Below are positions 19,911 to 42,366 of a DNA stretch of 64,000 bases, piece after piece. The notes below the pieces were generated by a model that saw only the letters and a list, made by a program, of their open reading frames with translations, had not been told where the DNA came from and did no database searches. Numbering within the stretch: the first letter of the stretch is position 1; the number at the start of each line of letters is the position of its first letter. The stretch lies in contig NZ_MIJB01000014.1 in assembly GCF_002174305.1 (NCBI RefSeq), positions 62,001 to 126,000 of the forward strand, read 5' to 3'. Source of the DNA: Aeromicrobium sp. PE09-221. Lineage in GTDB: Bacteria > Actinomycetota > Actinomycetes > Propionibacteriales > Nocardioidaceae. A program made the position numbers and the translations under genes.

Positions 19911-22900
19911 CTAGTTTGAGACTCCAGCGGGTGCTGGGGTCTGGTGGTGAGCGTAGTGTGCCCGTTCGGCTTCGACGGGTGTGAGGTCGTCGCAGTATTC
20001 GAACGGGCGTCGGTGGTTGAACCAGTCGACCCATTCGGCGGTCGCGATCTCGAGGTCGTCGAGCCCCTTCCAAGGACGACGGGCTCTGATCAGTTCGGTC
20101 TTGTAGAGCCCGATCACCGACTCGGCCAGGGCGTTGTCGTGCGACGATCCGACTGCTCCGGTCGAGGGTTTGATGCCAGCGGTGGCGAGGTGTTCTGTGT
20201 AGGCCACGGACAGGTACTGAACTCCGTGGTCGTGGTGGGCGATCAGCCCGGCCAGGTCGCGGCCGTCGCGGTGCCGGGTCCAGATCGCCTGGTCGACCGC
20301 ATCGACGACGAACTGGCTGGTCATCGTGGTCGAGACCGCCCAGCCCAGGATCCGGCGGGCGTAGGCGTCGATCACGAACGCGGTGTAGCACCAGCCCGAC
20401 CACGTTGAGCAGTAGGTGTAGGGGTCGGACAGGAGCGCCCTGTCAGCCTTTCGGCTGGTGGGTTTCTCCTGCCCGCCCTCCGAACCGGACGTGCGGCTTC
20501 CACCGCATCCGGCTCTCCACATGTTCATGCCGTGGCTGCTGGTCCCCATGGTGTGAGAATCTTCGTTCCTCGATACCGGTAGCGAGTTACTGGATGCTGC
20601 CAGCAGCGGTAGAACTCGATCCCTTCGGCGCGGATCTCCCATCCGGGAAGGTGACGCCTGATGAGGGTGCCCATGTTCAGTTTGGGGTGACGTTTCTTCA
20701 ACCAGCCCACGATCCGCCAGAAGGCGAAGTGATCGAGATAGTCAAAGACGCGTTTCGATACCCCGTGCTGAAAGTAGGTGCACCAGCCCCGCAGCACCGG
20801 GTTCAACCGGCGCAGCAGGTCTGCCAGCGTTCGATGTGATGCTCGCCGAGTCATGCGTCTGACCTTGTCCTTGATCGAAGCCAGCGAATTCTTCGATGGG
20901 TAGGTATAGACCGCAGTCTTCTCGGCCGAGTGTCCTCGAATATGCCGACGCTGGATGCGCCAGCCGAGGAAGTCGAACCCTTCGTCAATATGTGTCAGGC
21001 GGGTCTTCTCGGCCGACAGGCGCAAACCCATCGGTTCGAGCACCGCTGCTGTCTCACCCCACAGCGTTTCGGCATCGGCGCGGTTGCCGTGGACAAGAAC
21101 AACGAAGTCATCGGCATAGCGGATGAGTTTCATTGTCGCGCCTCCAGCACGCCGGTGCTTCGCGCGTGTCCATTCCGGACCGAGAGCATCCCACTTCGCA
21201 GCGAAGTGCTCGTCCAGAACGGACAGGGCGATGTTGGCCAGCAACGGTGACAGAATCCCTCCTTGCGGGGTGCCGGTGATGGTGTCCCTGCTCAGGCCAT
21301 CCTCGGAGAGGACACCTGCTCTCAAGAACCCGCGGACCAGCCGCAGCACACGTTTGTCCCCGATCCGATCTCGCACCCTGCCCATGAGGGCCGTGTGGTC
21401 GATCTCGTCGAAACACGCCTTGATATCGGCCTCGAACACCCATTCATAGTTCCGGGTGCCCGAGGCATAGAAATGAATCTCAGCGATCGCGTCCTGCGCT
21501 CTTCTTCTCGGCCGGAAACCATACGACGATGGTTCAAAGTCGGCTTCGAAGACCGGTTCCATCACCATCTTCAGGGACGCCTGCACGATCCGGTCCGTCA
21601 TCGTCGGTATCCCCAGCGAACGCGTCTTGCCATTCGCTTTGGGGATCTGCTTCTGCCGGACCCGCTCAGGCGTGAATGCTCCCGACTTCACGCTTTCACG
21701 TAAATCGGCGAGCATCGCGACCACACGGTCGGCCGGTATCGAACAAGGCACGACCCCGTCGACGCCGGCAGTGCGGCCGCCCTTGTTGCCCCGCACCCGA
21801 TCCCACGCTGCCATCAGGAACGCAGGATCATGGACGAGGGTGAACACATCATCGAAACGACGACCAGGATCGGCCGCCGCCCAACGGTGCAGTTTCGTTT
21901 GCATCCCAAGTACTCGCGCCCACGCCGACTGCGTGTCGACCGGCCACGAAACACCCGTATTCACCAGTGTGTCTCCTTGCCTGCATCCGCTACTGCGAAA
22001 CATGCTGGACCCCTTCGCCATGTGGTCGGCTTTCCCGACCCCGGACTACTACGAGTCCTCCGCCCCATCCCGGCCCGATCAACAGGCCATGCGTTCAGCC
22101 AAGTCGTCTGCCGCTGGCTGCGGCAGACGACCGGCAGAGCCGGGACAGTTCCCACGTTCCTTCTTGGACCATTCGACGGGATCGGCACCCAGTTATGCCC
22201 CTGCACCATCGCCACGACTACGCCGCAGGCATTCATCGTGGCCTCCGGACCGGCGACATCACCCACTCCCAGAGTTCCCCGCACGACCGAAGCCGCCCAG
22301 GTGCGCGATGCGACCCAGCCCATGTCCGCCAGGTTTTGGGCTGGTGGGTTGGATTGAGGGGCTTTCAGCCACTGGTTCCTCACGTATGCCTCTCCGTCTC
22401 GCTAGCCGAGCCCGCACCATCTGGCAGTACTGATACGACTCGTCGTTGTCGAGGACTGCTCCACCACCCGCCCACATGCCTGAGCAGACGACCGTCCTCC
22501 AGCTATCAGATGCCTGCTGCGACAGGCATCCAGCGGTGTCCTTTCACCACCACAAGGTCCAAGAACGCCTCGTGGCGCTCGAAGTCGGCCACCCAGAGCC
22601 GATCCGGCGCCAGCGGCGCGAAGTTCCGGTCGACCAAGTCCAGCGGCTTCGGGGCCTTCGGGTCGCTGATCGTGGTGCGTTTGACCTTCCCGCGGACCGC
22701 TCCGGCCAGCCCGAGTTCGCCCATCAGCCGCTCGACCGTGCACCGCGCGATCGGCGCCGCACCGGCGGGCCGTTGGCGGTTCAGCGTCAACCAGACCTTC
22801 CGCGCTCCGTAGACGCCGTAGTTGTCCGCATGCACCTGCTCGATCGCGGGCCTCAACTCGGCATCGCGCTGCTCACGAGCGGTCGGCCGGCGGCCGCGGT

Positions 22901-24752: not shown

Positions 24753-24786
24753 TTTACCTACTCCGTAGGTAAACTACGCTGTAGGT
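24753..24786. promoter_or_regulatory. Paired TetR-type operators upstream of the BVMO gene
   Basis: Site 1 (24753-24773) is a perfect palindrome TTTACCTAC-TCC-GTAGGTAAA. Site 2 (24772-24786) is AACTAC-GCT-GTAGGT, centre 16 bases downstream. The same ACCTAC-N3-GTAGGT-type pairs occur at 28756-28805 and 33772-33820. The BVMO start is 24 bases beyond site 2. Confidence 0.8.
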
Positions 24787-24809
24787 ATTTCCGAACGCGT
24801 GGAGGAGAC

Positions 24810-26300
24810 ATGGGCGACACAACGCTCAACGTGGAAGTCGACGAACTGGACTTCATCATCGTCGGAGCCGGCCTATCTGGAATCGGCATCGCAGCGACGC
24901 TGCAACGAGAGAGGCCGGGCACACGCTTCGTCATGTTGGAGGCCCGCGACGCCATCGGAGGAACCTGGGACCTGTTCAAGTACCCCGGGATCCGGTCCGA
25001 CTCCGACCTCTACACCTTCGCCTACGACTTCAAGCCGTGGACCGACAAACGAGCCATCGCACCCGCTTCGGCCATTCTCAGTTACCTGCGCGAAACCGTG
25101 GCCGAGTACGACCTCGCTCCCACGATCCGGTACAACCACAAGGTCATCCGCGCGGTATGGACAAGTGAGGACGGCTGTTGGGAGGTAACCGCTCAACATG
25201 GCGAAGAGACGGTGCTCCTGCGAACCAAGTGGCTGTTTTGCGCCAGCGGCTACTACAACTACGACGCAGGGTATTCACCGGAGTTCCCGGGAGCGGCGTC
25301 GTTCAACGGGCAGATCATCCATCCCCAAGCGTGGCCGGACGACCTGCAGTATGCAGGCAAGCGCGTTGTGGTCATCGGTAGCGGCGCGACCGCCGTCACC
25401 CTCGTGCCTGCGATGGCGCCCCTCGCTGGTCACGTCACGATGTTGCAGCGGACTCCGAGCTACATCCTTCCGGTTCCGGGCGGTGACCCCATCGCCAATG
25501 GCCTGCGAAGGGTGCTCGGACCCAAGCGCGGCCACGCCATTGCCCGGCAGAAGAATGTCGCCCAAGCGCGAGGCATCTTCAACGTCTCCCAGCGTCACCC
25601 GTCGATAGTTCGCAAGGCCATCCGCAAGCTGACTGAGTCGAAGCTGCCGAAGGGCTATCCCGTCGACGCGCACTTCAACCCGCCGTACAACCCTTGGGAC
25701 CAACGGCTCTGCCTGGTGCCAGACGGAGATCTCTTCACGGCCATCTCTGAAGGCAGCGCCTCCATCGTCACCGACCGAATCAAGACCTTCACCGCCGACG
25801 GCCTTCTCCTTGAATCGGGTGAGGAGCTTCCGGCCGACATCGTGGTCACGGCTACGGGCTTGGATCTGCTCGCACTGGGGGGCATGGACCTCGTCATCGA
25901 CGGTGAACCGCTGGTCCTCACCGAGGCGGTCGCCTTCAAGGGGATGCTGATGAGTGGTGCTCCCAACTTCGCATTCGCCATCGGCTACACCAACATCTCG
26001 TGGACCCTGAAGGTCGGGCTCGTCGCCGAGCATCTCGTTCGCATCCTCGACTACATGGACGTTCACGGCTATGACGTTGTGGCGCCAGAGCTCCCTGGTG
26101 GCGAGTTCGCGACTCGCCCTTTGATGGACTTCGACGCGGGCTACGTCCAGCGCGCGATCGATCGACTTCCCCGCCAGGGGGCTGACGCTCCGTGGGTCAT
26201 GCCGCAGGACTACCGCAAGGACACGAAACTGTTACGCCACGGACCTGTGACCGATCCTCAACTGCACTACCGCCGCGTTCCCGTGAAGGTTGCTCCCTGA
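24810..26300 (+). CDS. Baeyer-Villiger monooxygenase, EthA-like flavoprotein
   Basis: 496 residues. FAD motif GAGLSG at 19-24, the Baeyer-Villiger fingerprint FNGQIIHPQAWP (F-x-G-x3-H-x3-W-P) at 165-176, and the NADPH motif GSGATA at 190. The GGTWDLFKYPGIRSDSDL block after residue 50 is that of EthA-type BVMOs. The enzyme inserts oxygen next to a ketone (or oxidises S/N) using NADPH and O2. It is transcribed from a promoter with the shared operator pair and converges on the CMD-MDR-VOC-SCP2 operon across a strong terminator. An ester or lactone product would suit the esterase encoded at 29263-30261 (inference). Confidence 0.9.
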   Translation: MGDTTLNVEVDELDFIIVGAGLSGIGIAATLQRERPGTRFVMLEARDAIGGTWDLFKYPGIRSDSDLYTFAYDFKPWTDKRAIAPASAILSYLRETVAEYDLAPTIRYNHKVIRAVWTSEDGCWEVTAQHGEETVLLRTKWLFCASGYYNYDAGYSPEFPGAASFNGQIIHPQAWPDDLQYAGKRVVVIGSGATAVTLVPAMAPLAGHVTMLQRTPSYILPVPGGDPIANGLRRVLGPKRGHAIARQKNVAQARGIFNVSQRHPSIVRKAIRKLTESKLPKGYPVDAHFNPPYNPWDQRLCLVPDGDLFTAISEGSASIVTDRIKTFTADGLLLESGEELPADIVVTATGLDLLALGGMDLVIDGEPLVLTEAVAFKGMLMSGAPNFAFAIGYTNISWTLKVGLVAEHLVRILDYMDVHGYDVVAPELPGGEFATRPLMDFDAGYVQRAIDRLPRQGADAPWVMPQDYRKDTKLLRHGPVTDPQLHYRRVPVKVAP

Positions 26301-26322
26301 CGGGAGGGAAACAGGCGGGAAC

Positions 26323-26364
26323 GCGAAGAGGGCCTGGCGGAAGTGCTCGCCAGGCCCTCTTCGC
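26323..26364. terminator. Bidirectional terminator between BVMO and CMD genes
   Basis: Perfect 17-bp stem GCGAAGAGGGCCTGGCG / CGCCAGGCCCTCTTCGC with an eight-base loop, midway between two convergent stop codons. Confidence 0.9.
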
Positions 26365-26375
26365 ATTCAGATGCG

Positions 26376-26903
26376 CTAGAGAATCGCACTGTCCTCAAGT
26401 GGCACCCGCGCCGACTCCAGGAACCGACTCACGAGGTTGAAATAGCTGACGCACAGGACCAGCTCGGTGGTCTGCACGCGGCCGTAGCGATCGAGTAGCG
26501 CCTCCAGCAGGTCATCGCGCAGTCGGATGTTGAGTGTGATGTCCTCAGCGGCGTCGAGGACCAACTGCGTCTCCTCGTCGAACCCACGCACGGGTCCGTC
26601 AACGCTCACTCGTGCGATCTCGTCGTCGCTCAGACCGACGATCCTGCCAATCCGCTCGTGCTGGACCCATTCATACTTCGAGCTGGTGATGGTCGCGATC
26701 CTCAGGATCGCGAGCTCACGCAGGCGTCGGTCGAACTTGCTCTGCAACAGGATCGAGCCGGCGAACTCAAGGAACGGCTTCAAGCTCGCAGTCGTGTTGG
26801 CGACAGCCCGGAAGATGTTGGCATCGGGAATGCCCTTGAGCAGCTTGAACTCCTTCTCGGAAAGCTCCTCGTCGGTCGGCAGAGGAATGAATGGTTTGGT
26901 CAC
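26376..26903 (-). CDS. Carboxymuconolactone decarboxylase (CMD/AhpD-like) family protein
   Basis: 175 residues. The CMD core is visible (KFDRRLRELAILRIATITSS..EWVQHERIGRIVGLSDDEI, in parts). The AhpD catalytic Cys-x-x-Cys is absent; the corresponding stretch is TITSSKYEW, so peroxidase chemistry is unlikely. It is the last gene of the operon SCP2-VOC-MDR-CMD and overlaps the MDR stop by four bases. The paralogue at 32317-32844 is closely similar. A role as a decarboxylase or isomerase-like small enzyme on a pathway intermediate is inferred; family annotation alone does not prove the reaction. Confidence 0.82.
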   Translation of the reverse strand: MTKPFIPLPTDEELSEKEFKLLKGIPDANIFRAVANTTASLKPFLEFAGSILLQSKFDRRLRELAILRIATITSSKYEWVQHERIGRIVGLSDDEIARVSVDGPVRGFDEETQLVLDAAEDITLNIRLRDDLLEALLDRYGRVQTTELVLCVSYFNLVSRFLESARVPLEDSAIL

Positions 26904-27886
26904 GCGAGGTCCTCCAGGTTGATGATGATCTTGCCGAGATGTTCATTTGCTGCCATACGGGCGAACGCAGCCTCGTACTCGGTTGCCTTGAGGACATGGT
27001 CGACCGGCATCCGCAAGCTCCCGTCGGCGATACCCGGCAGCAGCGCCTCGCGGGCGCTGGCGATGACCTCGTCGATCTCGCCGAGGGTTCGACTGCGGAA
27101 CGTGGTCCCGAAGTACTGGATGCGGCGCGCCGAGTGCTCTTCGAGGTCGATCTCCACCTTGTTGCCGCCCATGCGCCCGATGTTGATCAGCCGTCCAGCC
27201 ACGCGGGTGGCTTGGATCGTCTGGTTGACCAGTCGTCCCGCAACGAGGTCGACGGAGAGGTCGACGCCCTTGCGCTTGGTCGAGCGCAGGACGCCGCGGA
27301 CCCATTCGGGGTCCGTGGGGTCCAGGGCAAGGTCGGCCCCGAACTCCGTGAGTCGTTCCCGTCTCGCCGCTGTGGTGGAGGTGCCGATGACCGTGGCCGC
27401 ACCGAAGCGCTTGGCGACCTGCAGACCCATGAGACCCATCGCCGAGCTGGCACCTTGGATCAGCACCGACTCGCCCGCGACGAGGCCGCCGAGCGTGACC
27501 ACGGCGTCATGCATCGTCTGCATCGAGACCGGAAGCCCGGCCGCCTCCTCGTAGGAGAGGGTGGCGGGGATCGGGTGGAGCCACTCGGGCTTGGTGACCA
27601 GATACTCCGAGAATGCACGTGGCCCGGCCGACATGACCCGGTCGCCAACCGAGGCAGAGGTGACGCCGTCTCCGAGCTCGACTACCTCTCCGGACCATTC
27701 GAGGCCGAGCGGCTGTCCGACACCCCCCATGAGGCCGTGGCTGTCCCCAGTGAGCATCGACAGATCAGCCCGGTTGAGTGCAGCAGCGCGGAGCTTGATG
27801 AGGACGAATCCCGGGCCAGGCGAGGGTTTGTCGAACTCGCCGATCGCCGGACCATTGGTTCCGGCAATGATGGCACGCATGGTCAC
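26900..27886 (-). CDS. Zinc-independent medium-chain dehydrogenase/reductase (quinone oxidoreductase-like)
   Basis: 328 residues, a GroES-like N-terminal domain followed by a Rossmann domain with AGESVLIQGASSAMGLMGLQ (AxGxxG-type motif). It lacks the zinc-ligand cysteine pattern, which places it with quinone oxidoreductase/enoyl reductase MDRs using NADPH. Starts MTMRAIIAG and is coupled to the VOC gene by an ATGA overlap. A paralogue beginning VTTMRALLG stands in the same order behind a VOC gene at 51263-52264. Confidence 0.88.
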   Translation of the reverse strand: MTMRAIIAGTNGPAIGEFDKPSPGPGFVLIKLRAAALNRADLSMLTGDSHGLMGGVGQPLGLEWSGEVVELGDGVTSASVGDRVMSAGPRAFSEYLVTKPEWLHPIPATLSYEEAAGLPVSMQTMHDAVVTLGGLVAGESVLIQGASSAMGLMGLQVAKRFGAATVIGTSTTAARRERLTEFGADLALDPTDPEWVRGVLRSTKRKGVDLSVDLVAGRLVNQTIQATRVAGRLINIGRMGGNKVEIDLEEHSARRIQYFGTTFRSRTLGEIDEVIASAREALLPGIADGSLRMPVDHVLKATEYEAAFARMAANEHLGKIIINLEDLA

Positions 27887-28416
27887 TTGCCTCCCATCGG
27901 GCGGATCGGCTTGGACCCGTCCCAGCCGATCGACGACTTCCGGATGAAGTCGAACACCGCCCGTTTGGGGCCGCTGACGTCAGAGATCTCCACGACGGTG
28001 CCGGGATGTCCCTGAGTCTCGAAGTAGGCGAATCGCCCGTGCTCGCCCCCGATCTTTCCCTCCTGCCCAACCACGTAGCCGAGATCAATTGCGTTGTCGT
28101 AGAGATCCTGATACTCGGTGGTCCAGTAACACATGTGCTGGAGGCCTTCGTGGCCGGCGGCGAGGAAGTCGCGGTACATCGACGGGGCGTCGTTGCTGGG
28201 CTGAATCAGCTCGATCTGCAGATCGCCGGAGTTGGCCAGAGCCACGCTGATCCGGGCGTCAGATGGCTCGCCGCGGTACCGGAAGTCCTCGACCTGGACG
28301 TCCTCGAAGTAGAACCACGGGCCAACTCCAAGGGCATCGACCCAGTGCTTGATCGCGGAGTCCAGATCGCGCACCACGTAGCCGTTCTGGGTCACCGCAC
28401 CGAAGATCCGGCTCAT
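27883..28416 (-). CDS. VOC-superfamily (glyoxalase-like) protein
   Basis: 177 residues starting MSRIFGAVTQNGYVVRDL. Two beta-alpha-beta-beta-beta modules are visible. Likely metal ligands are Glu in LQIELIQ, His in GLQHMCYW and Glu in VVEIS. Related proteins include methylmalonyl-CoA epimerase and glyoxalases, so an isomerase, lyase or dioxygenase step is possible; the reaction cannot be stated. Coupled between SCP2 and MDR by ATGA overlaps. It is roughly two thirds identical to the VOC at 32892-33419. Confidence 0.85.
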   Translation of the reverse strand: MSRIFGAVTQNGYVVRDLDSAIKHWVDALGVGPWFYFEDVQVEDFRYRGEPSDARISVALANSGDLQIELIQPSNDAPSMYRDFLAAGHEGLQHMCYWTTEYQDLYDNAIDLGYVVGQEGKIGGEHGRFAYFETQGHPGTVVEISDVSGPKRAVFDFIRKSSIGWDGSKPIRPMGGK

Positions 28417-28730
28417 GCGAGCTGGTCCTTGTTGAAGAAGGTGGGGATGTCCTTGGCGAGTTGGAGGTCGCCTTCGACCTGGAGTTTGCCGGCGAGGAAG
28501 GCCTCGACGCCGTCGAGGTCGCCGCGGAGGACGGAGATGAGGTCCTCGTCGGAGGCGATGAGCGTGACGTCGGGGTCGGCGGCGGTGCCGTCGTGGACGG
28601 TCAGGCCGTCGCTGGTGAGGACGACGTAGGCGGGGGTGGAGACGTTGAGCTGGACGGTTCCCTCGGCGCCGTCGGCGGCCTCGGCGTCGTAGGCGGGGGG
28701 CAGCATGTTGAGAAACTCGGAGGCGGACAT
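28413..28730 (-). CDS. SCP2 sterol-binding-domain-like protein (copy 2)
   Basis: 105 residues: MSASEFLNMLPPAYDAEAAD..., with the SCP2-type pattern VTLIASDEDLISVLRGDLDG, FLAGKLQVEGDL and a C-terminal KDIPTFF. SCP2 domains bind hydrophobic acyl or sterol-like ligands. It is the first gene of the second operon, right below an operator pair. The DNA is nearly identical to the copy at 33416-33733 (about eight differences by eye in 318 bases), far closer than the adjoining VOC genes. Confidence 0.85.
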   Translation of the reverse strand: MSASEFLNMLPPAYDAEAADGAEGTVQLNVSTPAYVVLTSDGLTVHDGTAADPDVTLIASDEDLISVLRGDLDGVEAFLAGKLQVEGDLQLAKDIPTFFNKDQLA

Positions 28731-28755
28731 CGGGGTGGGACCTTTCAGTTCAAGA

Positions 28756-28805
28756 ACCTACGGCGTAGGTAATGCACATCACACCATAAACATACGGCGT
28801 AGATA
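28756..28805. promoter_or_regulatory. Paired TetR-type operators upstream of the second SCP2 operon
   Basis: Site 1 (28756-28770) is ACCTAC-GGC-GTAGGT, perfect; site 2 (28791-28805) is CATAC-GGC-GTAGAT, imperfect, 34 bases centre to centre. It lies between the SRPBCC stop and the SCP2 start, giving this operon its own regulated promoter. Confidence 0.8.
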
Positions 28806-28825
28806 TTTCAACCCGGGAGAGCTGC

Positions 28826-29266
28826 TCAGGTGGCAAGTTCCTGCTCTGCCGCGTCGAGAATTCCGCTGAGTAGGCGCTGCGCGGATCGCTGGACGAGGTA
28901 CCCGGCCGGCCCGTGAGCCCAGCCGGGCAGAGCGAGCTCGATGTGCGACGACCAGACTACCCTGGTGCCCTGTGCGTCATCGAGCAGACGGACATGGCCT
29001 GAGCCGCGGACGGGAGGGAAGGCCGCTCGAATGACGTAGCCGATCGAGTCGCCGGGAACGTAGCTGGTGATCTCTTCTCGGAACCATCCAGTCGAGCTGA
29101 TGAGGCTGCGTACTGCATGGACACCGAAGGGGAACCGGGCGCCAGCGGCTAGCCATCGGGCGCGCAGCACCGTGCTGGAAGACGAGTAGCGTCCAGCGTC
29201 GGAGAGCCAGGTGAACACCAGTGGACGCGGGGCGGAGATGACTCGGTCGACGATCGTGCGTGTCAT
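28826..29266 (-). CDS. SRPBCC (polyketide cyclase/START-like) family protein
   Basis: 146 residues with the SRPBCC opening TRTIVDRVISAPRPLVFTWL, central beta strands (VWSSHIELALPG) and the long C-terminal helix (LSGILDAAEQELAT). These helix-grip proteins bind hydrophobic ligands in a deep pocket. Its start overlaps the esterase stop, making it the last gene of the seven-gene operon headed by SCP2 copy 1. A binding or cyclase role is inferred only from the fold. Confidence 0.75.
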   Translation of the reverse strand: MTRTIVDRVISAPRPLVFTWLSDAGRYSSSSTVLRARWLAAGARFPFGVHAVRSLISSTGWFREEITSYVPGDSIGYVIRAAFPPVRGSGHVRLLDDAQGTRVVWSSHIELALPGWAHGPAGYLVQRSAQRLLSGILDAAEQELAT

Positions 29267-30261
29267 GAGGGCCGCGTCACCTCACCCTCGTGCCCCACGG
29301 CCTCCCGCAGGGTCCTGGCCATGGTCTCCCAGAGCGCGGTCATCGTCGGCGGCTGTGGACGCACCATCACATCCGCGGCGTGGTACATGCCTGGAACGGT
29401 GTGGACCTCGCAGGGCACGCCGGCTCGTCGCAGTCGTGCGCCGTACAGATGCACCTCGTCGTAGAAAAGGTCGAGATCCCCGACTCCGATCCAAGCAGGC
29501 GCAAGTCCGCGAAGGTCCTCTCGCCTGGCGGCTGAGCCTTCGAGGGTTTGCGCGTCCTGCAGGTACTGCGCCCAGGCAAAGCGGTTGGATGCCGCCGTCC
29601 AGATCAATCGCCCTCGTCCACCGCGGGATGCGCGGGTGCGGTCATCAAGCATCGGGTAGAGCAGCATCTGCAACGAGACCGGTATCCCTTCGTCCTGCGC
29701 CCGCTGGGCAACTTCGGCCGCAAGGCCTCCGCCGGCAGAGTCCCCACCGACTGCGATGCGCTCAGGATCGACCCCGAGGGCCGCGGCGTTGGCGCGCAAC
29801 CAGCGCAGCGCGGCCATGCAGTCGTCGACTGCGCAGGGAAAGGGGTCCTCAGGCGCGGTCCGATACTGCGGCAGCGCGACCAGGACGCCCGCCTTGACGG
29901 CAAGGAAGCTGCCCTTCTCGTACTCTGATCTGGGCGAACCAAAGAGCCGTCCTCCTCCGTGGATCCACAGGAGAGCGCCCGTGACACCGCTCCTGTCCTC
30001 TGCGTCGACCAGGTGGATGGCGCGACCCTCGGGCAGGTCGTTGAGTCGCCGTGCGCGCGTGGACCCGATCAGCGGCGTCGGTCGGCCCATGACCCGTCGT
30101 GCCATCTGCAACGAGGCCGTCGATCGCACGCTCGTCGGCAACCACAGCAGCACGTTTCTTCGTAGTTCAGGTGCTGCTCGTCGCACCTGTCGCGCGCGTA
30201 CGACGAGCGCTCCGAGGAGACCGAGGCCGGTCAGGACGAGCCAGACCCGGGTCCTCGTCAT
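29263..30261 (-). CDS. Alpha/beta hydrolase, hormone-sensitive-lipase (HSL) family esterase
   Basis: 332 residues from ATG 30261, coupled to the FMN-enzyme stop. A hydrophobic N-terminal helix (VWLVLTGLGLLGALVV) suggests membrane anchoring or export. The oxyanion motif HGGG is at 101-104, nucleophile Ser175 in GGDSAGGG, acid in the GVGDLDLFYDE region and His in PGMYHAAD. HSL esterases cleave short to medium esters and lactones. In this regulon it could open the ester or lactone made by the BVMO (inference). Confidence 0.88.
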   Translation of the reverse strand: MTRTRVWLVLTGLGLLGALVVRARQVRRAAPELRRNVLLWLPTSVRSTASLQMARRVMGRPTPLIGSTRARRLNDLPEGRAIHLVDAEDRSGVTGALLWIHGGGRLFGSPRSEYEKGSFLAVKAGVLVALPQYRTAPEDPFPCAVDDCMAALRWLRANAAALGVDPERIAVGGDSAGGGLAAEVAQRAQDEGIPVSLQMLLYPMLDDRTRASRGGRGRLIWTAASNRFAWAQYLQDAQTLEGSAARREDLRGLAPAWIGVGDLDLFYDEVHLYGARLRRAGVPCEVHTVPGMYHAADVMVRPQPPTMTALWETMARTLREAVGHEGEVTRPS

Positions 30262-31421
30262 GGCACTGGAAGCAGGATGTCGGGGTGGAGTTCCGTGATG
30301 CTCGCGTACCCATTCAGTGCCATGGTCAGGTCCATCTCCGCGAGGAGACTCTTGAGGACGTGGACGATGCCATCGGTGGCGCCCAGCGCTGCTCCGTAGC
30401 CGTACGGACGACCGATTCCGACGGCGGTCGCGCCGAGGGCGAGTGCCTTCACGATGTCGACTCCGCTGCGCACGCCTGAGTCGAAGAGCACGGGCAAGTC
30501 GCCCGCAGCCGCGACGACCTCGGGCAGGAACGTCAGTGCCGGCGCGCTCGCGGCTTGACGACCCCCGTGGTTGGAGCAATAGATGCCGTCAACGCCAGCG
30601 TCACGTGCCTGGCGAACATCTTCGGCCGCGCAGATGCCCTTGAGGATGAGGGGAAGGCTGGTGCTGCCGCGCAACCAGTCCAGATCGGCCCAACTGAGGG
30701 TGGGATTGCCGAAGACTCCCGCCCACTGCTCGACCGCCGCGGCCGGATCGTCGCGGCGCTCGGCGGGCAGGCGTCTGAGGAAGACCTCGTCGCTGGTGTA
30801 GTTGGCCAGCCCGGCTCCACCCAGTTGGGGGAACGTGCCGTGCCGCAGATCCCGCGGCCTGTAACCCAGCGTCCAGGTGTCGAGGGTGACGACGAGCGCT
30901 CGATAGCCGGCCGACTCGGCCCGCGAGATGAGGCTCACGGCGAGTTCTCGATCATTGGGGGTGTAGAGCTGGAACATGCCAGGCGTCTGTCCCAAGTTGG
31001 CCGCAACCTCTTCGAGTGGATCCTGCATCAGGGTTGAACCCACCAGCGGAACACCGGTCGCCGCAGCTGCCTTGGCGGCCGCTATGTCGCCGTGCCCGTC
31101 GCTGCTCAAGACACCGAGAACACCAATCGGTGCCATGAACACCGGTGAGGGCAGGGACATGCCGAACAGGTCGACTGATTGGTCACGCTGTCCAGCCCCG
31201 ACCAGCATGCGCGGCCGGATGCCGAGCCGCTCGAATGCTGCGACGTTGCCCTGCTGAGTGTGCTCGTCACCCGCGCCTCCGGCCACGTAGTCCCACAGGT
31301 CCGGGACAACGGCTTCTTGGGCCTGCGCCTCCAGCTCTGAGAACGTGAACGGCATGGTCGGCGCCTGCCCCAAGATTCCTTCGAGATAGACACCGAGCTG
31401 GAAGTCAGAGAAGTTGCTCAT
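30258..31421 (-). CDS. FMN-dependent alpha-hydroxy acid dehydrogenase/lactate 2-monooxygenase-like
   Basis: 387 residues. FMN-binding and catalytic motifs: MAPIGVLGVL near 96, QLYTPND near 151, Lys261 in LILKGI, catalytic His285 and Arg288 in SNHGGRQ, and LFDSGVRSGVDIVKALALGA. The start of the protein and the long interdomain region resemble mycobacterial lactate 2-monooxygenase. It should oxidise a 2-hydroxy acid, possibly with oxidative decarboxylation. It overlaps the SDR upstream and the esterase downstream by four bases each. Confidence 0.88.
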   Translation of the reverse strand: MSNFSDFQLGVYLEGILGQAPTMPFTFSELEAQAQEAVVPDLWDYVAGGAGDEHTQQGNVAAFERLGIRPRMLVGAGQRDQSVDLFGMSLPSPVFMAPIGVLGVLSSDGHGDIAAAKAAAATGVPLVGSTLMQDPLEEVAANLGQTPGMFQLYTPNDRELAVSLISRAESAGYRALVVTLDTWTLGYRPRDLRHGTFPQLGGAGLANYTSDEVFLRRLPAERRDDPAAAVEQWAGVFGNPTLSWADLDWLRGSTSLPLILKGICAAEDVRQARDAGVDGIYCSNHGGRQAASAPALTFLPEVVAAAGDLPVLFDSGVRSGVDIVKALALGATAVGIGRPYGYGAALGATDGIVHVLKSLLAEMDLTMALNGYASITELHPDILLPVP

Positions 31422-32320
31422 GGCTTCGTCTCGACCACGTCGGCCGTCGAAGTCGCGTGATCAACAAGATCCCATAGGTGCGCGGCAAGGCGAGGGTCTG
31501 ATGCCTCCTTGGTGCGCCCTACCGGCTTCGGGTGCCCACGGAATTCGTAGAGGCGATCAGGGCCGATGTAGCTGTTGTTCGGCAGCACCTCGGTAGCGGC
31601 GTAGAGGGTGGTGAGGGCTCCCTTCGTCGGCGGCTGTCCGAGCATGGCGACGCCGACGTCGAAGAGGCGGTTGAGTGCCTTGCTCGGTGTCGGGTTCGTC
31701 AGGCTCGTTGCAGCCCAGCCGGGGTGCGAGAGTTGGACGTCGACACCCGGCCGCAGGGCGTGGATGCGCCTGGACAGCTCGGCGCCCCAGATCATGTCGC
31801 CCAGCTTGGACTGACCGTAGGCTGCAGGCTTGGTCCACTTCCTGCGCTCGAAGTGCGGGTCGTCAAGGTCGAAGGTGGCCTGCTTGTGGGCCATCGAGCC
31901 CACGACGACGACGCGACGCTTGACTCGGGGCAGCACCAGGTTGGTGAAGCGGAACGGCCCGAACAGGTTGACCGCAAGGTTCATCTCGAAGCCGTCCTCG
32001 CTCACCTGGCGGGAGTTCGTTGCGGCGCCGGCGTTGTTGATGAGCACGTCCACCTGCTCAGTGACCTGGTTGGCTGCGGACTGGACGCTCGCCTGTGAGG
32101 AGAAGTCAACCCTCAGCACATCGGCGTCGCCGAGTTGGCTGGCAACCTTCTGCCCCAAGGCCTCGTTGCGTACCGCCAGGATGATCCGCGCGCCGCGGCT
32201 CGACGCGACCCGCACAGTCTCCAAGCCGAGGCCGTTGGTGCTGCCGGTGACGAGCCACGTCTGGCCGGTAAGGTCGGGCATGTCGTCGAGGTCCCATCGG
32301 GGGGTGGCAGGTGCACTCAC
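31418..32320 (-). CDS. SDR family oxidoreductase (retinol dehydrogenase-like)
   Basis: 300 residues. Cofactor motif VTGSTNGLG, NNAG in VLINNAGAAT, and the catalytic YGQSK pair; the substrate loop HPGWAATSL follows. The arrangement with GSMAHKQATFDLDDPHF matches the light-dependent-protochlorophyllide/retinol dehydrogenase-like SDR group. A close homologue is encoded at 38696-39571. It oxidises or reduces an alcohol/ketone, and the substrate is unknown. Coupled to CMD upstream and the FMN enzyme downstream. Confidence 0.88.
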   Translation of the reverse strand: MSAPATPRWDLDDMPDLTGQTWLVTGSTNGLGLETVRVASSRGARIILAVRNEALGQKVASQLGDADVLRVDFSSQASVQSAANQVTEQVDVLINNAGAATNSRQVSEDGFEMNLAVNLFGPFRFTNLVLPRVKRRVVVVGSMAHKQATFDLDDPHFERRKWTKPAAYGQSKLGDMIWGAELSRRIHALRPGVDVQLSHPGWAATSLTNPTPSKALNRLFDVGVAMLGQPPTKGALTTLYAATEVLPNNSYIGPDRLYEFRGHPKPVGRTKEASDPRLAAHLWDLVDHATSTADVVETKP

Positions 32321-32844
32321 AGCAGGGCCTCGCTCTCCAGCGGCACCCGCGCGGACTCGAGGAAGCGCGGAATGAGGTTGTAGAAGCTGATCGCCAGCAC
32401 GAACTCAGTGGTCTGCTCGCGCCCGTAGCGCTCCAGCAGGCGCTCGAGCAGGTCGGAACGAAGCTTGATGTTCCGAGTGATGTCCTCGGCGGCCTCGAGG
32501 ACGAGCAGCGTCTCCTCGTCCAGCCCCTCGGTCGAGCCCGGAGTGTTCGCGGTGACGATGTCTTGCTCCGGCACACCGACCACCTTGGAGATGCGCTCAT
32601 GCTGGACCCGTGCGTACTCAGAGCCCAAGATCGCAATCACGCGCAAGATCGCCAGCTGGCGCAGGCGCCGGTCGAACTTGTTCTGGAGCAGCACGGAACC
32701 CGCGAAGTCCAAGAACGGCTTGAGGCTTGCCGAGGTGTTCGCAACCATCCGGAACACGTTGGCCTCCGGAAGGCCCTTGAGCAGCTTGAGCTCTCGCTCG
32801 GTCAGTTGCTCGTTGGTGGGGAGTGGGATGTGGGCGTCGGTCAT
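32317..32844 (-). CDS. Carboxymuconolactone decarboxylase (CMD/AhpD-like) family protein
   Basis: 175 residues from ATG 32844 (the longer open frame upstream is out of context). Same architecture as the CMD at 26376-26903: LKLLKGLPEANVFRMVAN, FDRRLRQLAILRVIAILGSE. Again the AhpD Cys-x-x-Cys is missing (AILGSEYA). It lies between VOC (47-base gap) and SDR (ATGA overlap). The two CMDs are clear paralogues, so the operons carry parallel enzymes. Confidence 0.82.
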   Translation of the reverse strand: MTDAHIPLPTNEQLTERELKLLKGLPEANVFRMVANTSASLKPFLDFAGSVLLQNKFDRRLRQLAILRVIAILGSEYARVQHERISKVVGVPEQDIVTANTPGSTEGLDEETLLVLEAAEDITRNIKLRSDLLERLLERYGREQTTEFVLAISFYNLIPRFLESARVPLESEALL

Positions 32845-32891
32845 GTGGCGCTCGATTTCTGGTAGTCGTGGGTTGATGTCGGTGCCGCTGC

Positions 32892-33419
32892 TCAGTTCAT
32901 GTGGCGGATGGGTCTGGAGCCGTCCCAGGTGGCAGCCGTCTTGCGCATGAAGTCGAAGATGGCCTTCTTGGGGCCGCCGTGGTCGGACAGCTCGAGCACG
33001 GTGCCGGGATGGGTCTGGGTGTCGAAGTAGGCGAAGCGACCTTGCTCGCCGCCCACACAGCCCTCCTGGCCGACCACGTAGCCGAGTTCGAGTGCCTTGT
33101 CGTAGTCGGCTTGGAAGTTGCTGGTCCCGTAGCAGATGTGCTGCAGGCCTTCGTGGCCTGCGGCGAGGAAGTCGCGGTACATCGACGGAGCGTCGTTGGT
33201 CGGCTCGATGAGCTCGATCTGCAGGTCGCCGGCGTAGGCGATGCCCACGCTCATCCGGGCATCGGAGGGAACGCCACGGTAGCGAAAGTTCATGATCGGG
33301 ATGTCGTGCACATAGAACCACGGGCCGACATGCAGGTTCTCGGCCCAGTGCTGCATCGCAGTCTGGATGTCTCGCACGACGTAGCCGTTCTGGGTCACCG
33401 CACCGAAGATCCGGCTCAT
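32892..33419 (-). CDS. VOC-superfamily (glyoxalase-like) protein
   Basis: 175 residues, paralogue of 27883-28416 with the same opening MSRIFGAVTQNGYVVRD and block SMYRDFLAAGHEGLQH. Probable metal ligands Glu (IELIE), His (GLQHICYG) and Glu (VLELS) are conserved. Its start overlaps the SCP2 stop. Differences are concentrated around the substrate-facing segments (HDIPIMNFRYRG versus EDVQVEDFRYRG), suggesting related but distinct substrates. Confidence 0.85.
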   Translation of the reverse strand: MSRIFGAVTQNGYVVRDIQTAMQHWAENLHVGPWFYVHDIPIMNFRYRGVPSDARMSVGIAYAGDLQIELIEPTNDAPSMYRDFLAAGHEGLQHICYGTSNFQADYDKALELGYVVGQEGCVGGEQGRFAYFDTQTHPGTVLELSDHGGPKKAIFDFMRKTAATWDGSRPIRHMN

Positions 33420-33733
33420 GCGAGCTGGTCTTGGTTGAAGAAGGTGGGGATGTCCTTGGCGAGTTGGAGGTCGCCTTCGACCTGGAGTTTGCCGGCGAGG
33501 AAGGCCTCGACGCCGTCGAGGTCGCCGCGGAGGACGGAGATGAGGTCCTCGTCGGAGGCGATGAGCGTGACGTCGGGGTCGGCGGCGGTGCCGTCGTGGA
33601 CGGTCAGGCCGTCGCTGGTGAGGACGACGTAGGCGGGGGTGGAGACGTTGAGCTGGACGGTTCCCTCGGCGCCGTCTGCGGCGTCGGCGTCGTAGGCGGC
33701 GGGGAGCTTGTTGAGAAACTCGGAGGCGGACAT
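33416..33733 (-). CDS. SCP2 sterol-binding-domain-like protein (copy 1)
   Basis: 105 residues from ATG 33733; the open frame continues far upstream through the operator and antisense to the TetR gene, which is not plausible coding. Differs from copy 2 (28413-28730) at only a handful of residues (NKLPAAYDADAAD versus NMLPPAYDAEAAD, and the end FFNQDQLA versus FFNKDQLA). First gene of the operon SCP2-VOC-CMD-SDR-FMN enzyme-esterase-SRPBCC. Confidence 0.85.
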   Translation of the reverse strand: MSASEFLNKLPAAYDADAADGAEGTVQLNVSTPAYVVLTSDGLTVHDGTAADPDVTLIASDEDLISVLRGDLDGVEAFLAGKLQVEGDLQLAKDIPTFFNQDQLA

Positions 33734-33771
33734 CGGGTGGAACTTCCTCTCAGGCATGGAATGAAACGAAA

Positions 33772-33820
33772 ACCTACGCTGTAGGTGACACACGCCACAG
33801 ACTAAACCTACGTTGTAGGA
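33772..33820. promoter_or_regulatory. Paired TetR-type operators between SCP2 operon and its TetR
   Basis: Site 1 (33772-33786) ACCTAC-GCT-GTAGGT and site 2 (33806-33820) ACCTAC-GTT-GTAGGA, 34 bases centre to centre, the same spacing as at 28756-28805. They occupy the divergent promoter of SCP2 copy 1 and the TetR gene, so the regulator probably controls itself and the whole regulon. Confidence 0.85.
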
Positions 33821-33847
33821 ATAGCAACGGTGGGGCATGATGGACCA

Positions 33848-34543
33848 ATGAGCAGCGTCAAAGCCAAGCCCGCTCGACGAGGACGCCCGCCGCGGGGGAG
33901 CGAGCTCCTGTCCCGCCAGCGGGTGCTGGAGGCCGCCCTCGCGCTCGTTGACGAGGAGGGCCTCGATGCGATCAGCATGCGCAAGCTGGCGTTGCGCCTC
34001 GATGTCGATCCGATGAGTTTCTACAATCACGTCGACGGTAAGGACGCACTGCTCGACGGCATCGCCGAGATGATGTTGTCCTCCATCGGCTTTCCCGAGA
34101 CCGTTGGTGACAGCGAGCACAAGGGGCTGCGGGAGAGCATGGAGGTCATGGCGCGGAAGTTCCGGCAGGCCATGCTGGACCATCCGCGAGCGGCACCTGT
34201 GGTGCTGACCCGACAGCTTCCGTCGATCGTCGCGCTGGCTCCCATCGAAGCCGTGATAGGTCCGCTGCTTGCCGCCGGCTATCCATCGGACAAGGCGGTT
34301 CATGCTCTGCGCTCCGTCCTCGCCTTCCTGATTGGAGCGTTGATGAGGGAAGTTGGGGCAGCGCCGACTTTCAGTGCCAGCGACTCTGAAGCGAGCCGGC
34401 AGCGGGAAGCCGATCTGCGAGCTTCGGGACTGCCTGCAGTGATGGCCACTGCCGCGCACCTGGCTGTGATCGACCACGAGACGGAGTTCGAGTTCGGTCT
34501 CGCGCTCCTGCTTGACTCGCTGGATAATCAGCTTCGTCCTTAG
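33848..34543 (+). CDS. TetR-family regulator of the BVMO/SCP2 regulon
   Basis: 231 residues. DNA-binding helices: RQRVLEAALALVDEEGLDAI, SMRKLALRLDVDPMSFYNHV. The N-terminus is basic (KAKPARRGRPPRG) and a larger C-terminal domain of the TetR_C (tetracycline-repressor-like) type follows. It is divergent from SCP2 copy 1 with the operator pair between. The ligand is presumably a pathway substrate or intermediate. The 146 bases after its stop hold no gene. Confidence 0.88.
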   Translation: MSSVKAKPARRGRPPRGSELLSRQRVLEAALALVDEEGLDAISMRKLALRLDVDPMSFYNHVDGKDALLDGIAEMMLSSIGFPETVGDSEHKGLRESMEVMARKFRQAMLDHPRAAPVVLTRQLPSIVALAPIEAVIGPLLAAGYPSDKAVHALRSVLAFLIGALMREVGAAPTFSASDSEASRQREADLRASGLPAVMATAAHLAVIDHETEFEFGLALLLDSLDNQLRP

Positions 34544-34690: not shown

Positions 34691-36022
34691 CTACTCATGG
34701 CGGAGTGCGTCGATGGGGTCCTTGCTGGCGGCGCGGATGGCGGGGAGTGTGCCTGCGGTGAAGGCGATGCCGATGATGACGGCAGCCACCGCAGCGATCA
34801 GGGTTGGTGTGAAGGAGATCAGTTGGAGTCCTGGGAGGTCTGCGAGGGGGCCTTCGGCGAGGACTTGGTTCACCCATGGTGCGAGGGCGACGGGGGTGGT
34901 GATGCCGATGGTGGCGGAGAGGACGCCGATGGTGACCGCCTCGAGGCTGAACAGGGTGAACACGCGTCGGGAGGTGAGGCCGAGGGCTTTGAGGAGTCCG
35001 ATCTCGCGGGTGCGTTCCTGGACGCTCATCAGGAGGGTGTTGATGATGCCGAGGCTGCCGGCCAGCAGCGTGATCGCGGCGAAGCCGATGAGCATGAGCA
35101 GGATCGCGTCGAAGAAGGCGCGGAACTGGCCGAGGATGTCGTCGATGGTGCGGCCCTGGAACCCGGTCTCGTCGAGTCTTTCCTGGACGGCGGCGACCGA
35201 GTCCGCGACAGGGGTCCCTTGTTCGGTGGTGACGGTCACGGCTGCGAGGGCCCACCGGTTCTTCTGCTCGTCGGGCAGTCCGCGGGCCTGAATGTCGTAG
35301 ATCGCTTCGGCGAGTGCGACGCTGGGCGTCGCGGCGGGTGTGCTGAAGGTCAGCACCGGGTCGGTGACGCCGACGACGGTGGCGGTGAGGGTCTCTTGTG
35401 TTCCGGTCGGGTCGGTGACGCCGAGGAGGAGGGTACGGCCGGCGAGGTCGTCGGCGCTGTCGAGTCCGAGGATCTTCACGTAGTCGCGTGGCAGGAGGAT
35501 CTGCGGTTCGTCACTGTCGAGGTCGGGTTGCGTGCCGGCGGCGAGGGGGAATCGGACGCCGGGGATGCCGGGGCTGAGGGAGAGTTTCCATCGGTCGGCT
35601 TCGGGCGCGTCTTCGAGCTGCAGGTAGTCGACGCGGACGGGACGGACGGTGTGGACGCGCTCGACGCCGTCGAGGGAACGCAGGGTGTCGAGGTCGTCGG
35701 TGGTGAGGAGTTCGGTCTGCCCGGAGGATGCGCCCAGGAGCACCGATCCGGAGCTGCCGATCCCGCCGACGGTCGGGGCGTCGGGGTCGTAGCGGACGAT
35801 GTCCCCTTCGACCTCGCCTGCGGGTTTGGTGACGGTGAGGGTGTCTTCGGAGCCGACGGTGGCGACGGTGTCGTCGATGTAGCTGTTCAGCCCGTTGTTG
35901 ACTGCCAGCGTGAGGGCGAGGGTGAACGCGCCGATCACGATCGCCAGCGCGGTCAGGGAGGTGCGCAGCCGGTTGCGGAAGGTGCCGGCGACGGCGGTGC
36001 GGACGAGGTCACGGGTCTTCAT
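34691..36022 (-). CDS. ABC transporter permease, MacB/FtsX type
   Basis: 443 residues. One N-terminal membrane helix ([20 protein letters not shown]), a large extracytoplasmic MacB-like domain of about 250 residues, then three C-terminal helices ([20 protein letters not shown] etc.) with the FtsX signature [20 protein letters not shown]. It ends [12 protein letters not shown], characteristic of the family. It is coupled to the ATPase gene by an ATGA overlap. Such MacB-type pairs export peptides, lipids or antibiotics; the substrate is unknown. Confidence 0.9.
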
Positions 36023-36717
36023 GCCGCCCTCCTCTCGTCGGCGACGACACGGCCGTCAGCGATCGTGACCGCGCGGTCGCAGTGGGCGGCGAGGTCGGGG
36101 TCGTGGGTGACGATGACGAGGGTGATGCCCTGTTCCCGGTTGAGGGTGAACAAGGTGTCCTCGACGGCCTGCCCGGTGGCGGTGTCGAGGTTGCCGGTGG
36201 GTTCGTCGGCGAAGATCACCTCGGGGTCGTTGATCAGCGCGCGGGCGATCACGACCCGCTGCTTCTGCCCGCCGGACAGATCGGTGGCGCGGTTCCGCGC
36301 CTTGTCGGCCATGTCCAGGCGCTCGAGCGCCGCCAGCGCCTTGCGCTCGCGTTCCTTGCGGGAGACGCCGGCGATGCTCAGCGGGAGGGCGACGTTGTCG
36401 AGGACCGATGCGCCGGCGATGAGGAAGAACTGCTGGAACACGAACCCGAAGGTGTCGTTGCGGGTGCGGGCCACCCGTGACGCGGAGAGTCTGGTGGTGT
36501 CGGTGCCGTCCAGCGTGATGGTCCCCGTGCTGGGAGTGTCCAGCAACGCCATGACGTGCATGAGGGTGGACTTGCCCGATCCACTCTTACCGACGATAGC
36601 CAGCGACTCCCCACGGGCAATGCTCAGATCGACTCCCCGCAGCGCGGTGAAGGCAGACGAGCCTTCCCCGTAGGTCTTGGTTACGTTCGAGACGGTGATC
36701 AGATCAGCGGACGTCAT
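36019..36717 (-). CDS. ABC transporter ATP-binding protein (MacB/LolD type)
   Basis: 232 residues from ATG 36717. Walker [10 protein letters not shown] at about 43-51, Q-loop FVFQQFF, signature LSGGQKQR at about 147, Walker [14 protein letters not shown]-loop VTHD. The [12 protein letters not shown] sequence is typical for lipoprotein-releasing/MacB ATPases. It partners with the permease just downstream. Confidence 0.95.
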
Positions 36718-37382
36718 CCGGTCGTGCCCTGTTCTGCCGTCGCACGTGCTTTCGGCCGGTCGATCCACCACCCCACCGCCAGCACGATCAGGTTGAGCGT
36801 GAGGGTGGTGGCGGCGAGCAGCTTGACGTTCTCCGGCGGGGTGGCCAGTTGGGAGAGGAGTTGGATGCCGATCAGGAGGGTGAAGATTCCGACGGCGGAG
36901 CGGGTACTCATGCCCATGCGTGAGCGGAACACGGCCCAGACGATGACCGCCGCGCCCAGCAGCCCGATCTCCAGGGTCGCCGCCGGGACGGGGATGTCCC
37001 ACATGCCCAAGCCCACCCTGGGCCCGCCGAACCACAGGTCGAGGTCGGGGCGGTGCACGATCAGGTCGAGGATCCAGTGCGAGAACACCACGGCGCCGAG
37101 CACGATCGATGGTCGCCACGGAAGTTTGAACAGTCTCGCCAGGCCGATCACCAGCGCGGTCCAGAGGACTGCGGCAGGCAGGCTGTGCGTGAAGGGCATG
37201 TAGTCGAGGTGGATCGGGGATCCTGGGAGGTCGGCGTCGACGCGGGCGACCTCGACACCGGCGATGATCAGCGGCGCCCAGGCCAGATCCAGCGTCTGGG
37301 AGGCGGAGAGGTAACTCCACAGCGGGGCACGGCTGTCGACCGCCTTGCCGGCGAAGCCGGCGGCGAAGTGTCCGACCAGCAT
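36714..37382 (-). CDS. Multi-pass membrane protein (metal-dependent-hydrolase-like)
   Basis: 222 residues from ATG 37382, which shares a base with the preceding stop. Five or so hydrophobic helices. Conserved His/Asp positions include MLVGHFAAGF, THSLPAAVLWTA, FSHWILDLIVHRPD, a pattern seen in membrane proteins annotated as metal-dependent hydrolases. It is coupled to the ABC ATPase. Function unproven. Confidence 0.65.
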   Translation of the reverse strand: MLVGHFAAGFAGKAVDSRAPLWSYLSASQTLDLAWAPLIIAGVEVARVDADLPGSPIHLDYMPFTHSLPAAVLWTALVIGLARLFKLPWRPSIVLGAVVFSHWILDLIVHRPDLDLWFGGPRVGLGMWDIPVPAATLEIGLLGAAVIVWAVFRSRMGMSTRSAVGIFTLLIGIQLLSQLATPPENVKLLAATTLTLNLIVLAVGWWIDRPKARATAEQGTTG

Positions 37383-38643: not shown

Positions 38644-38660
38644 GCGCCCACGACTTGGAT

Positions 38661-38702
38661 TTGACACGTGTCTAATTATACGTCATATTAGTCATGTGTC
38701 AA
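38661..38702. promoter_or_regulatory. Large operator palindrome, divergent TetR/SDR promoter
   Basis: Left arm TTGACACGTGTCTAAT (38661-38676) and right arm ATTAGTCATGTGTCAA (38687-38702) pair at 14 of 16 positions around a ten-base AT-rich spacer. The right arm contains the GTG start of the SDR and the left arm overlaps the longer TetR start, implying very short or leaderless transcripts. Confidence 0.7.
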
Positions 38703-42363: not shown

Positions 42364-42366
42364 GGC

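Follow-up and report, generated by a model that had tools for sequence, protein, structure and literature searches.

Paired palindromic operators and a candidate TetR-controlled catabolic regulon in Aeromicrobium sp. PE09-221

Could one repressor, acting through one type of operator at three promoters, tie a Baeyer-Villiger monooxygenase (BVMO) to a set of SCP2, VOC, MDR and CMD family proteins in a common catabolic task? This question is raised by thirteen neighbouring genes, comprising 12 enzyme or binding-protein genes and a tetR gene, that occupy 24.7-34.5 kb of a 64,000-nucleotide window of Aeromicrobium sp. PE09-221 (assembly GCF_002174305.1, contig NZ_MIJB01000014.1, positions 62,001 to 126,000), the window being the whole stretch of DNA that was analysed. 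A preliminary description had presented these genes as a complete regulon for an undescribed oxidation pathway. The results modestly favour a TetR-repressed, substrate-inducible catabolic regulon for a hydrophobic ketone or a ketone-yielding compound; as sequence-only cases go, the claim of a regulon is strong, and that of a pathway is plausible, with precedents for its conventional half.

Six palindromes of the type ACCTAC-N3-GTAGGT form three pairs, located before the BVMO gene, before SCP2a and between SCP2b and tetR, which are the three promoters where the preliminary description had placed them. The motif form given there is exact at three of the six sites, whereas the other three carry one or two mismatches. 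The BVMO pair is made up of ACCTACTCCGTAGGT (24756..24770, exact) and AACTACGCTGTAGGT (24772..24786, one mismatch), the SCP2a pair of ACCTACGGCGTAGGT (28756..28770, exact) and ACATACGGCGTAGAT (28790..28804, two mismatches), and the SCP2b/tetR pair of ACCTACGCTGTAGGT (33772..33786, exact) and ACCTACGTTGTAGGA (33806..33820, one mismatch). The start-to-start spacing is 16 bases within the BVMO pair and 34 bases within each of the other two.

The window contains five palindromes with at most one mismatch, where 100 shuffles averaged 0.01 and in no case (0/100) yielded five; at up to three mismatches the excess is weak (18 against a mean of 11.07, with 1/100 shuffles reaching 18). Across the genome (3,999,456 bases in 111 contigs) there are only three exact palindromes, every one of them at the three promoters of the cluster, and seven with at most one mismatch, five in the window and two forming a single pair on another contig, C61. 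When up to two mismatches are allowed, the genome-wide total of 54 falls below the 80 of a reversed-pattern control, so that only the strong sites are meaningful. The 17-base spacer of promoter-like hexamers holds a palindrome at both SCP2 promoters (at SCP2a, the second site lies between TTGAAA and TATGGT), and at the BVMO promoter the palindrome lies a few bases out of this position. For SCP2b and BVMO the hexamers were picked by eye, and only the SCP2a pair passed a consensus promoter scan, which found one against a shuffle mean of 1.0, and the promoter framing is therefore weak evidence.

The presumed binder is encoded next to one of the pairs. The tetR gene (33830..34543, plus strand, with an in-frame ATG at 33848 as an alternative start) specifies a predicted repressor with TetR_N (30.9 bits against a cut-off of 24) and TetR_C_1 (61.4 against 21) Pfam domains, an assignment also based on NCBIfam and on structural relatives, the nearest solved ones being the uncharacterised 3bqy, tetracycline repressors and ActR. 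The protein does not qualify as the tetracycline repressor TetR itself on NF010319, where it scores 87.8 bits against an equivalog cut-off of 265.

A link between operator and repressor can be sought outside this genome. A tandem CTAC-N3-GTAG pattern was found in 10 of 396 genomes of the phylum, the own genome included, and the reversed-pattern control was found in 11, making the raw number uninformative. With the own genome excluded, however, a TetR relative adjoins the tandem pair in six of nine genomes, the match starting within ~125 bases, against 1/86 control loci (Fisher p 6.6e-7). These controls are loci of similar size that had been fetched for VOC or CMD (L009-L037, L042-L070 and L197-L224) and not random stretches, and the remaining three genomes (L188, L189 and L190) have a tandem pair without a TetR relative. 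The recognition-helix region reads VDPM in the window TetR and in five of the six outside TetRs beside pairs, and VDAM in the sixth (L185). In the few cases available, the half-site (CCTAC or CCCAC) co-varies with the recognition-helix residues (VDPM/VDAM or VDPK/VDAK); a TetR on contig C61 (C61a) has VTAP with a CCTAC half-site, so the relation is no simple code. Sequence evidence backs the gene families, the operon structure, the palindromes and the tie between this family of TetRs and such palindromes; the local TetR is likely the regulator of one operator family at three promoters.

The BVMO gene and tetR are on the plus strand, with two minus-strand operons between them. Operon 1 has the order SCP2a-VOCa-MDR-CMDa and operon 2 the order SCP2b-VOCb-CMDb-SDR-FMN enzyme-esterase-SRPBCC; 4-base overlaps occur at eight of the nine junctions inside the operons, in keeping with the near-complete coupling described earlier, and the VOCb-CMDb junction is a 47-base gap. 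Pfam was applied to each of the 13 proteins and agrees with the families first named for the twelve enzyme or binding-protein genes and tetR, and NCBIfam, run on ten of them, gave no equivalog above its own cut-off.

The BVMO (24810..26300, plus strand, 496 aa) has an FMO-like Pfam match. In the available text of one account, a type I BVMO is defined by a Rossmann motif, BVMO1, BVMO2 and a second Rossmann motif in that order (PMC9044951). The window protein carries the corresponding fingerprints in order, GAGLSG at 19, GGTWDLFKYPGIRSD at 50, FNGQIIHPQAWP at 165 and GSGATA at 190, and by these family criteria it is a type I enzyme. In operon 2, the esterase (29263..30261, minus strand) is assigned by Pfam, NCBIfam and motifs to the hormone-sensitive-lipase (HSL) type, whose hallmarks are the HGGG oxyanion motif and the GDSAG nucleophile motif, found here at 101 and 173 respectively. 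The FMN enzyme (30258..31421, minus strand) aligns end to end with lactate 2-monooxygenase 6dvh (residues 1-385 with 1-392, 457 bits, E 4e-136) and keeps the SNHGGRQ motif, its gene being located here in an operon with an esterase and an SDR. The SDR oxidoreductase (31418..32320, minus strand; Pfam and NCBIfam) and the SRPBCC protein of the Polyketide_cyc2 ligand-binding fold (28826..29266, minus strand, PF10604), encoded by the last gene, complete the single-copy members of this operon.

Operon 1 begins with SCP2a (28413..28730, minus strand, PF02036), a stand-alone SCP2 lipid-binding protein, followed by the epimerase-like VOCa (27883..28416, minus strand, PF13669), the MDR reductase (26900..27886, minus strand, Pfam) and CMDa (26376..26903, minus strand, PF02627). 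Of the cluster proteins, VOCa and CMDa alone were modelled. The VOCa model (pLDDT 92.0) has its best fold matches among methylmalonyl-CoA epimerases, and a true methylmalonyl-CoA epimerase is rejected by TIGR03081 (31.4 against an equivalog cut-off of 114.95 bits); that of CMDa (pLDDT 91.3) matches AhpD-like proteins. AhpD peroxidases are defined by a CxxC redox motif, which is missing from both CMDa (one Cys) and CMDb (no Cys), so that CxxC peroxidases are rejected and a peroxidase role is unlikely. The MDR is nearest to the PIG3 quinone oxidoreductase family, with a TIGR02824 score below the subfamily cut-off (218.1 against 296.8 bits).

From these parts we infer how the genes are regulated, what each enzyme does and in which order, and the class of substrate, which would be an alicyclic or long-chain ketone or a terpenoid or steroid-like compound. 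The TetR would repress its own gene, the two SCP2 operons and the BVMO gene by binding the paired 15-base palindromes at their promoters, until it is released by a ligand, which is probably the substrate or an intermediate early in the pathway. The two SCP2 proteins and the SRPBCC protein would hold the hydrophobic substrate, the BVMO would convert a ketone to an ester or lactone and the HSL-type esterase would open it. The SDR and MDR oxidoreductases could then act on an alcohol or carbonyl, the epimerase-like VOC protein could move a proton next to a carbonyl, and the lactate-2-monooxygenase-like enzyme could carry out the oxidative decarboxylation of a 2-hydroxy acid. The AhpD-fold protein without CxxC would also take part.

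The same enzymes could instead serve defence, and this is the main rival, which we consider unlikely. In a detoxification or drug-response locus, TetR would sense a polyketide or quinone-like toxin, the MDR, VOC, BVMO and esterase would inactivate it and the binding proteins would sequester it, with no gain of carbon. Such a role would suit the solved relatives of the TetR, the closeness of the MDR to PIG3-type quinone oxidoreductases, the genes for an FtsX/MacB-type permease and an ABC ATPase just past tetR (34691-37320, minus strand) and the MFS transporter gene that follows the operator pair on contig C61. Against it, none of the 13 cluster genes encodes a transporter, the window palindrome search placed no strong-type operator pair before the ABC genes, and the C61 transporter is nearest to metabolite:H+ symporters, although below the family cut-off (336.7 against 443.45 bits). 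The lactate-monooxygenase-like enzyme and the SDR would also suit catabolism better.

A further question is whether the BVMO and the two operons belong to one pathway at all. The operons share a duplicated module. SCP2b (33416..33733, minus strand, Pfam), encoded by the first gene of operon 2, is 97.8% identical to SCP2a at the DNA level (311/318), with a central stretch of 243 identical bases, and the DNA identity between copies is 76.7% for the VOC genes, 70.6% for the CMD genes and 53.2% for the upstream regions. Pfam and pairwise comparison place VOCb (32892..33419, minus strand) at 70% identity to VOCa and CMDb (32317..32844, minus strand) at 65% identity to CMDa. Both palindromes and their 34-base spacing are kept in the SCP2 upstream regions despite the low identity there. 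This pattern fits an old duplication of the module that was followed by recent gene conversion in SCP2.

It is conceivable, and in our judgement improbable, that two unrelated units share one regulator family, namely a duplicated SCP2-VOC-(MDR)-CMD module acting on a substrate of its own, and a BVMO with a separately acquired operator, without a shared pathway. The BVMO pair has a spacing of 16 and not 34, BVMO-like DNA is scattered in the genus, where the module was not found except for a VOC gene in one genome (G157), and a BVMO lies near VOC at just two of 80 loci in the named-genome scan described below. Against such a split, an exact palindrome, of which the genome has only three, stands at the BVMO promoter, and BVMO, VOC and CMD genes occur together at those two loci, both from Bradyrhizobium.

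How the genes are distributed bears on both this alternative and the single regulon. In a DNA search of the genus (49 genomes including the own one, 37 of them with completeness of 90% or more and contamination of 5% or less), the twelve-gene set was found in none of the 48 other genomes; the own cluster scored 17,658 bits and the next best genome 254 bits, and on this DNA-level search inheritance of the whole set within the genus is rejected. Some match was present in 45 of the 49 genomes, own included, consisting among the matches listed of fragments of 64-84% identity, mostly of BVMO and esterase. At E 0.001, 30 of 197 genomes of the family, own included, contain a VOC relative; most are distant, and the one in G157 of the same genus is 50% identical. 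Among 20 neighbourhoods of VOC or CMD genes in the family and phylum, both genes occur only in G251 (VOC 58% and CMD 37% identical, with a lactonase-like gene between them) and G568 (27% and 30%, ~9 kb apart). A VOC search across the class (394 genomes) gave matches at E 1e-30 or better in 25, the own one included; in 14 of 15 neighbourhoods inspected no MDR or TetR of the window type lies nearby, and several have CoA ligases. An SCP2 of the cluster type is present in one of 246 genomes of the class, the own one.

Parts of the set recur together in other phyla. In a VOC scan of named genomes, the best 80 of 345 relatives are 63-72% identical and all proteobacterial by title, 42 of them Bradyrhizobium. 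Within 3 kb of VOC these 80 loci have a CMD gene in 32 cases, TetR in 16, SDR in 12, MDR in four, BVMO in two and SCP2 in one, and in 38 VOC stands alone among the proteins sought. The two BVMO-like proteins are 30-31% identical over 217 residues, and no esterase, FMN enzyme or SRPBCC gene was found near VOC at any of the 80 loci. At the two Bradyrhizobium loci (L132 and L143), the BVMO-like gene immediately precedes genes for VOC, CMD and a DOPA-dioxygenase-like protein, Pfam having been run on the L143 genes only. The order TetR-VOC-MDR-CMD-SDR occurs at three loci, and the TetR of the one that was checked (L175) has TetR_N and no TetR_C_1. An SCP2-VOC-MDR arrangement occurs once, on a gammaproteobacterial contig that ends inside the MDR gene, and among the loci examined all four of SCP2, VOC, MDR and CMD are adjacent only in the window. 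An SCP2 of the cluster type was found in one of four module-bearing proteobacterial genomes checked and in six of 274 genomes of the gammaproteobacterium's class, itself counted; in the other five no VOC, MDR or CMD gene lies near it, one of the contigs being only 5 kb. The CTAC-N3-GTAG palindrome does not occur in the 1.47 Mb of the 80 proteobacterial loci. At two Phenylobacterium loci (L100 and L128) a different palindrome, ACGAAC/GTTCGT, stands just before position 10001, upstream of VOC-MDR-CMD-SDR, and is a possible operator for a different TetR.

Taken with the promoter scan and the raw tandem-pair count, the sparse distribution of the set inside and outside the genus, the absence of its palindrome from the 80 proteobacterial loci, the scarcity or absence there of BVMO, esterase, FMN enzyme and SRPBCC genes and the lack of TetR_C_1 in the L175 TetR weigh against the single regulon. 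The co-inheritance check that the preliminary description had set out has a divided outcome, failing for the twelve genes as a set within the genus and holding for parts of it in other phyla. The gene set looks like a mosaic. Its partly duplicated SCP2-VOC-MDR-CMD core has, within the genomes searched, its nearest VOC and SCP2 relatives in proteobacteria, and it is joined to a BVMO and an esterase of kinds found in the genus.

Plasmids offer only distant parallels. VOC relatives occur in 83 plasmid records at no more than 55% identity; of eight inspected, one is unannotated and the others have TRAP transporter or RuBisCO-like, Rieske dioxygenase or acyl-CoA genes. The closest parallel comes from a Rhodococcus opacus plasmid, on which a zinc-binding dehydrogenase, an SDR, a VOC (39.5%), a TetR and an MFS gene lie within ~10 kb. 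SCP2b has no match among plasmids. CMDa has six weak matches, the one inspected having a TetR and acyl-CoA dehydrogenases and no annotated VOC or SCP2, and MDR matches 2746 records, the one inspected having an SDR, a CoA ligase and a thiolase and no annotated VOC, CMD or SCP2.

Closer relatives of the regulatory arrangement are found in one genome of the class and on contig C61. In G760, a TetR that is 47.5% identical to that of the window lies near an operon with MDR, VOC and a lactonase-like protein, the VOC being 57% identical to VOCa and the MDR 47% identical to that of the window's third MDR-VOC-CMD set (see below). Three variant palindromes ACCCAC-N3-GTGGGT with one mismatch each occur there against 0.03 expected, two of them 38 bases apart before the MDR-VOC-lactonase-like operon and one at the start of tetR. 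The lactonase-like protein shares 62.5% and 56.7% identity with two lactonase-like proteins of the metallo-beta-lactamase fold encoded on C61; by NCBIfam these C61 and G760 proteins are near AHL lactonases and 4-pyridoxolactonase, well below the cut-offs, and a lactone-opening step near the chemistry of the cluster is plausible.

The C61 pair lies between another TetR gene and the MFS transporter gene, with an SDR also there, and a TetR gene on the contig is preceded by one variant site and one looser site. In all, positions 8882-16010 of the contig (L005) hold a TetR, the MFS symporter, the SDR, an NAD(P)H-binding protein, two lactonase-like genes and operator-like pairs, and a large relaxase-like frame and a transposase-like frame, both judged by eye, are found on it too. 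A motif unique to the window TetR is ruled out by the similar pair beside this different TetR. Contig C61 may be the other half of the pathway, which would then be spread over two loci. The earlier claim of a complete regulon accordingly stands as far as one operator family, three promoters and a likely local regulator are concerned, whereas 'complete' is unsupported in view of the C61 operator pair and the lactonase-like proteins. That some other TetR, for instance a C61 regulator, is the main binder of the palindromes and the local TetR controls only itself is highly improbable: the pair at the C61 TetR's own promoter means that the motif alone does not name its binder, and its recognition-helix region differs beside the same half-site, but the local tetR directly adjoins one pair here and its relative a variant-type palindrome in G760, and VDPM is common to the window TetR and five of the six outside TetRs beside such pairs.

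A bolder version of the catabolic regulon, which we regard as tentative and rather doubtful, treats SCP2-VOC-MDR-CMD as an undescribed, horizontally moved module. SCP2 would present a hydrophobic carbonyl compound to the epimerase-like VOC protein, to the PIG3-related reductase and to a CxxC-less AhpD-fold enzyme of novel activity. The module would here feed a BVMO-esterase-lactate-monooxygenase branch. A single TetR would run the whole by way of paired operators, and related control would extend to further lactonase-like genes on C61.

Other features of the window lie around the cluster. A second catabolic-looking cluster at 40488-53567 has a lower G+C content (60.8%) and transposase genes inside and beside it; it comprises an NMT1-type ABC transporter, LysR, an acyl-CoA dehydrogenase, a CoA ligase, two CMD genes, MDR and VOC, and so holds the window's third MDR-VOC-CMD set, as well as a TetR and its 61% paralog (over 163 residues). 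An SDR gene at 38588-39571, whose product is 54% identical to the cluster SDR, adjoins another TetR gene (38044-38667). On the other side, a group II intron match (RF00029) and a reverse transcriptase/maturase gene occur among transposase genes at 20418-22021.

Several known systems resemble parts of the arrangement. Repressors of the Tn10 type have TetR_N and TetR_C_1 like the window TetR, and in tetO paired palindromes lie between divergent genes, as here, with a half-site that differs from that of the window. EthR reportedly octamerizes on its operator, the operators here being paired 15-base palindromes, and the window BVMO is presumably EthA-like in sequence and length. The mymA operon of Mycobacterium tuberculosis holds the LipR esterase and an SDR, and its regulator VirS is of the AraC type, whereas that of the window is a TetR; we know of no SCP2, VOC or CMD in it. 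Gordonia acmAB is a further example of subterminal ketone oxidation.

Published accounts, in their available text, describe EthR as a TetR-family repressor that controls the BVMO gene ethA of M. tuberculosis (PMC9480834), much as is proposed here, except that ethA is a single regulated gene and one TetR would here serve 12 genes at three promoters. The mymA operon is described as seven genes transcribed from the promoter of mymA, itself a BVMO gene, with adhD as the fourth (PMC13234193). For subterminal alkane oxidation, an alcohol dehydrogenase, a BVMO and an esterase were proposed together in Thalassolituus oleivorans on n-C28 (PMC6304351), giving the same order of enzymes and the route from ketone to ester to alcohol and acid; the available part of that account has no SCP2-VOC-MDR-CMD set, lactate-monooxygenase-like step or shared TetR operator. 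A BVMO of Caenibius tardaugens acts on progesterone (PMC12239570), and for SAR202 genomes a capacity to oxidise ketones to lactones has been deduced (PMC5395668). The SCP2-VOC-MDR-CMD set is absent from the available text of all five of these accounts, and it was not recognised, by titles and abstract openings, among the open-licence papers that searches for this composition listed. The earlier description of an undescribed pathway is therefore half right: TetR control of a BVMO and the BVMO-esterase-dehydrogenase route are already in print, and the SCP2-VOC-MDR-CMD composition is the part for which no precedent was found.

If the catabolic regulon is as proposed, it would provide a testable pair of operator and TetR to serve as the marker of a regulon family throughout the phylum. 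It would also bring together a set of uncharacterised enzymes, including the VOC protein, the AhpD fold without CxxC and the stand-alone SCP2, with a likely shared substrate, to which the inducer of the TetR would point directly.

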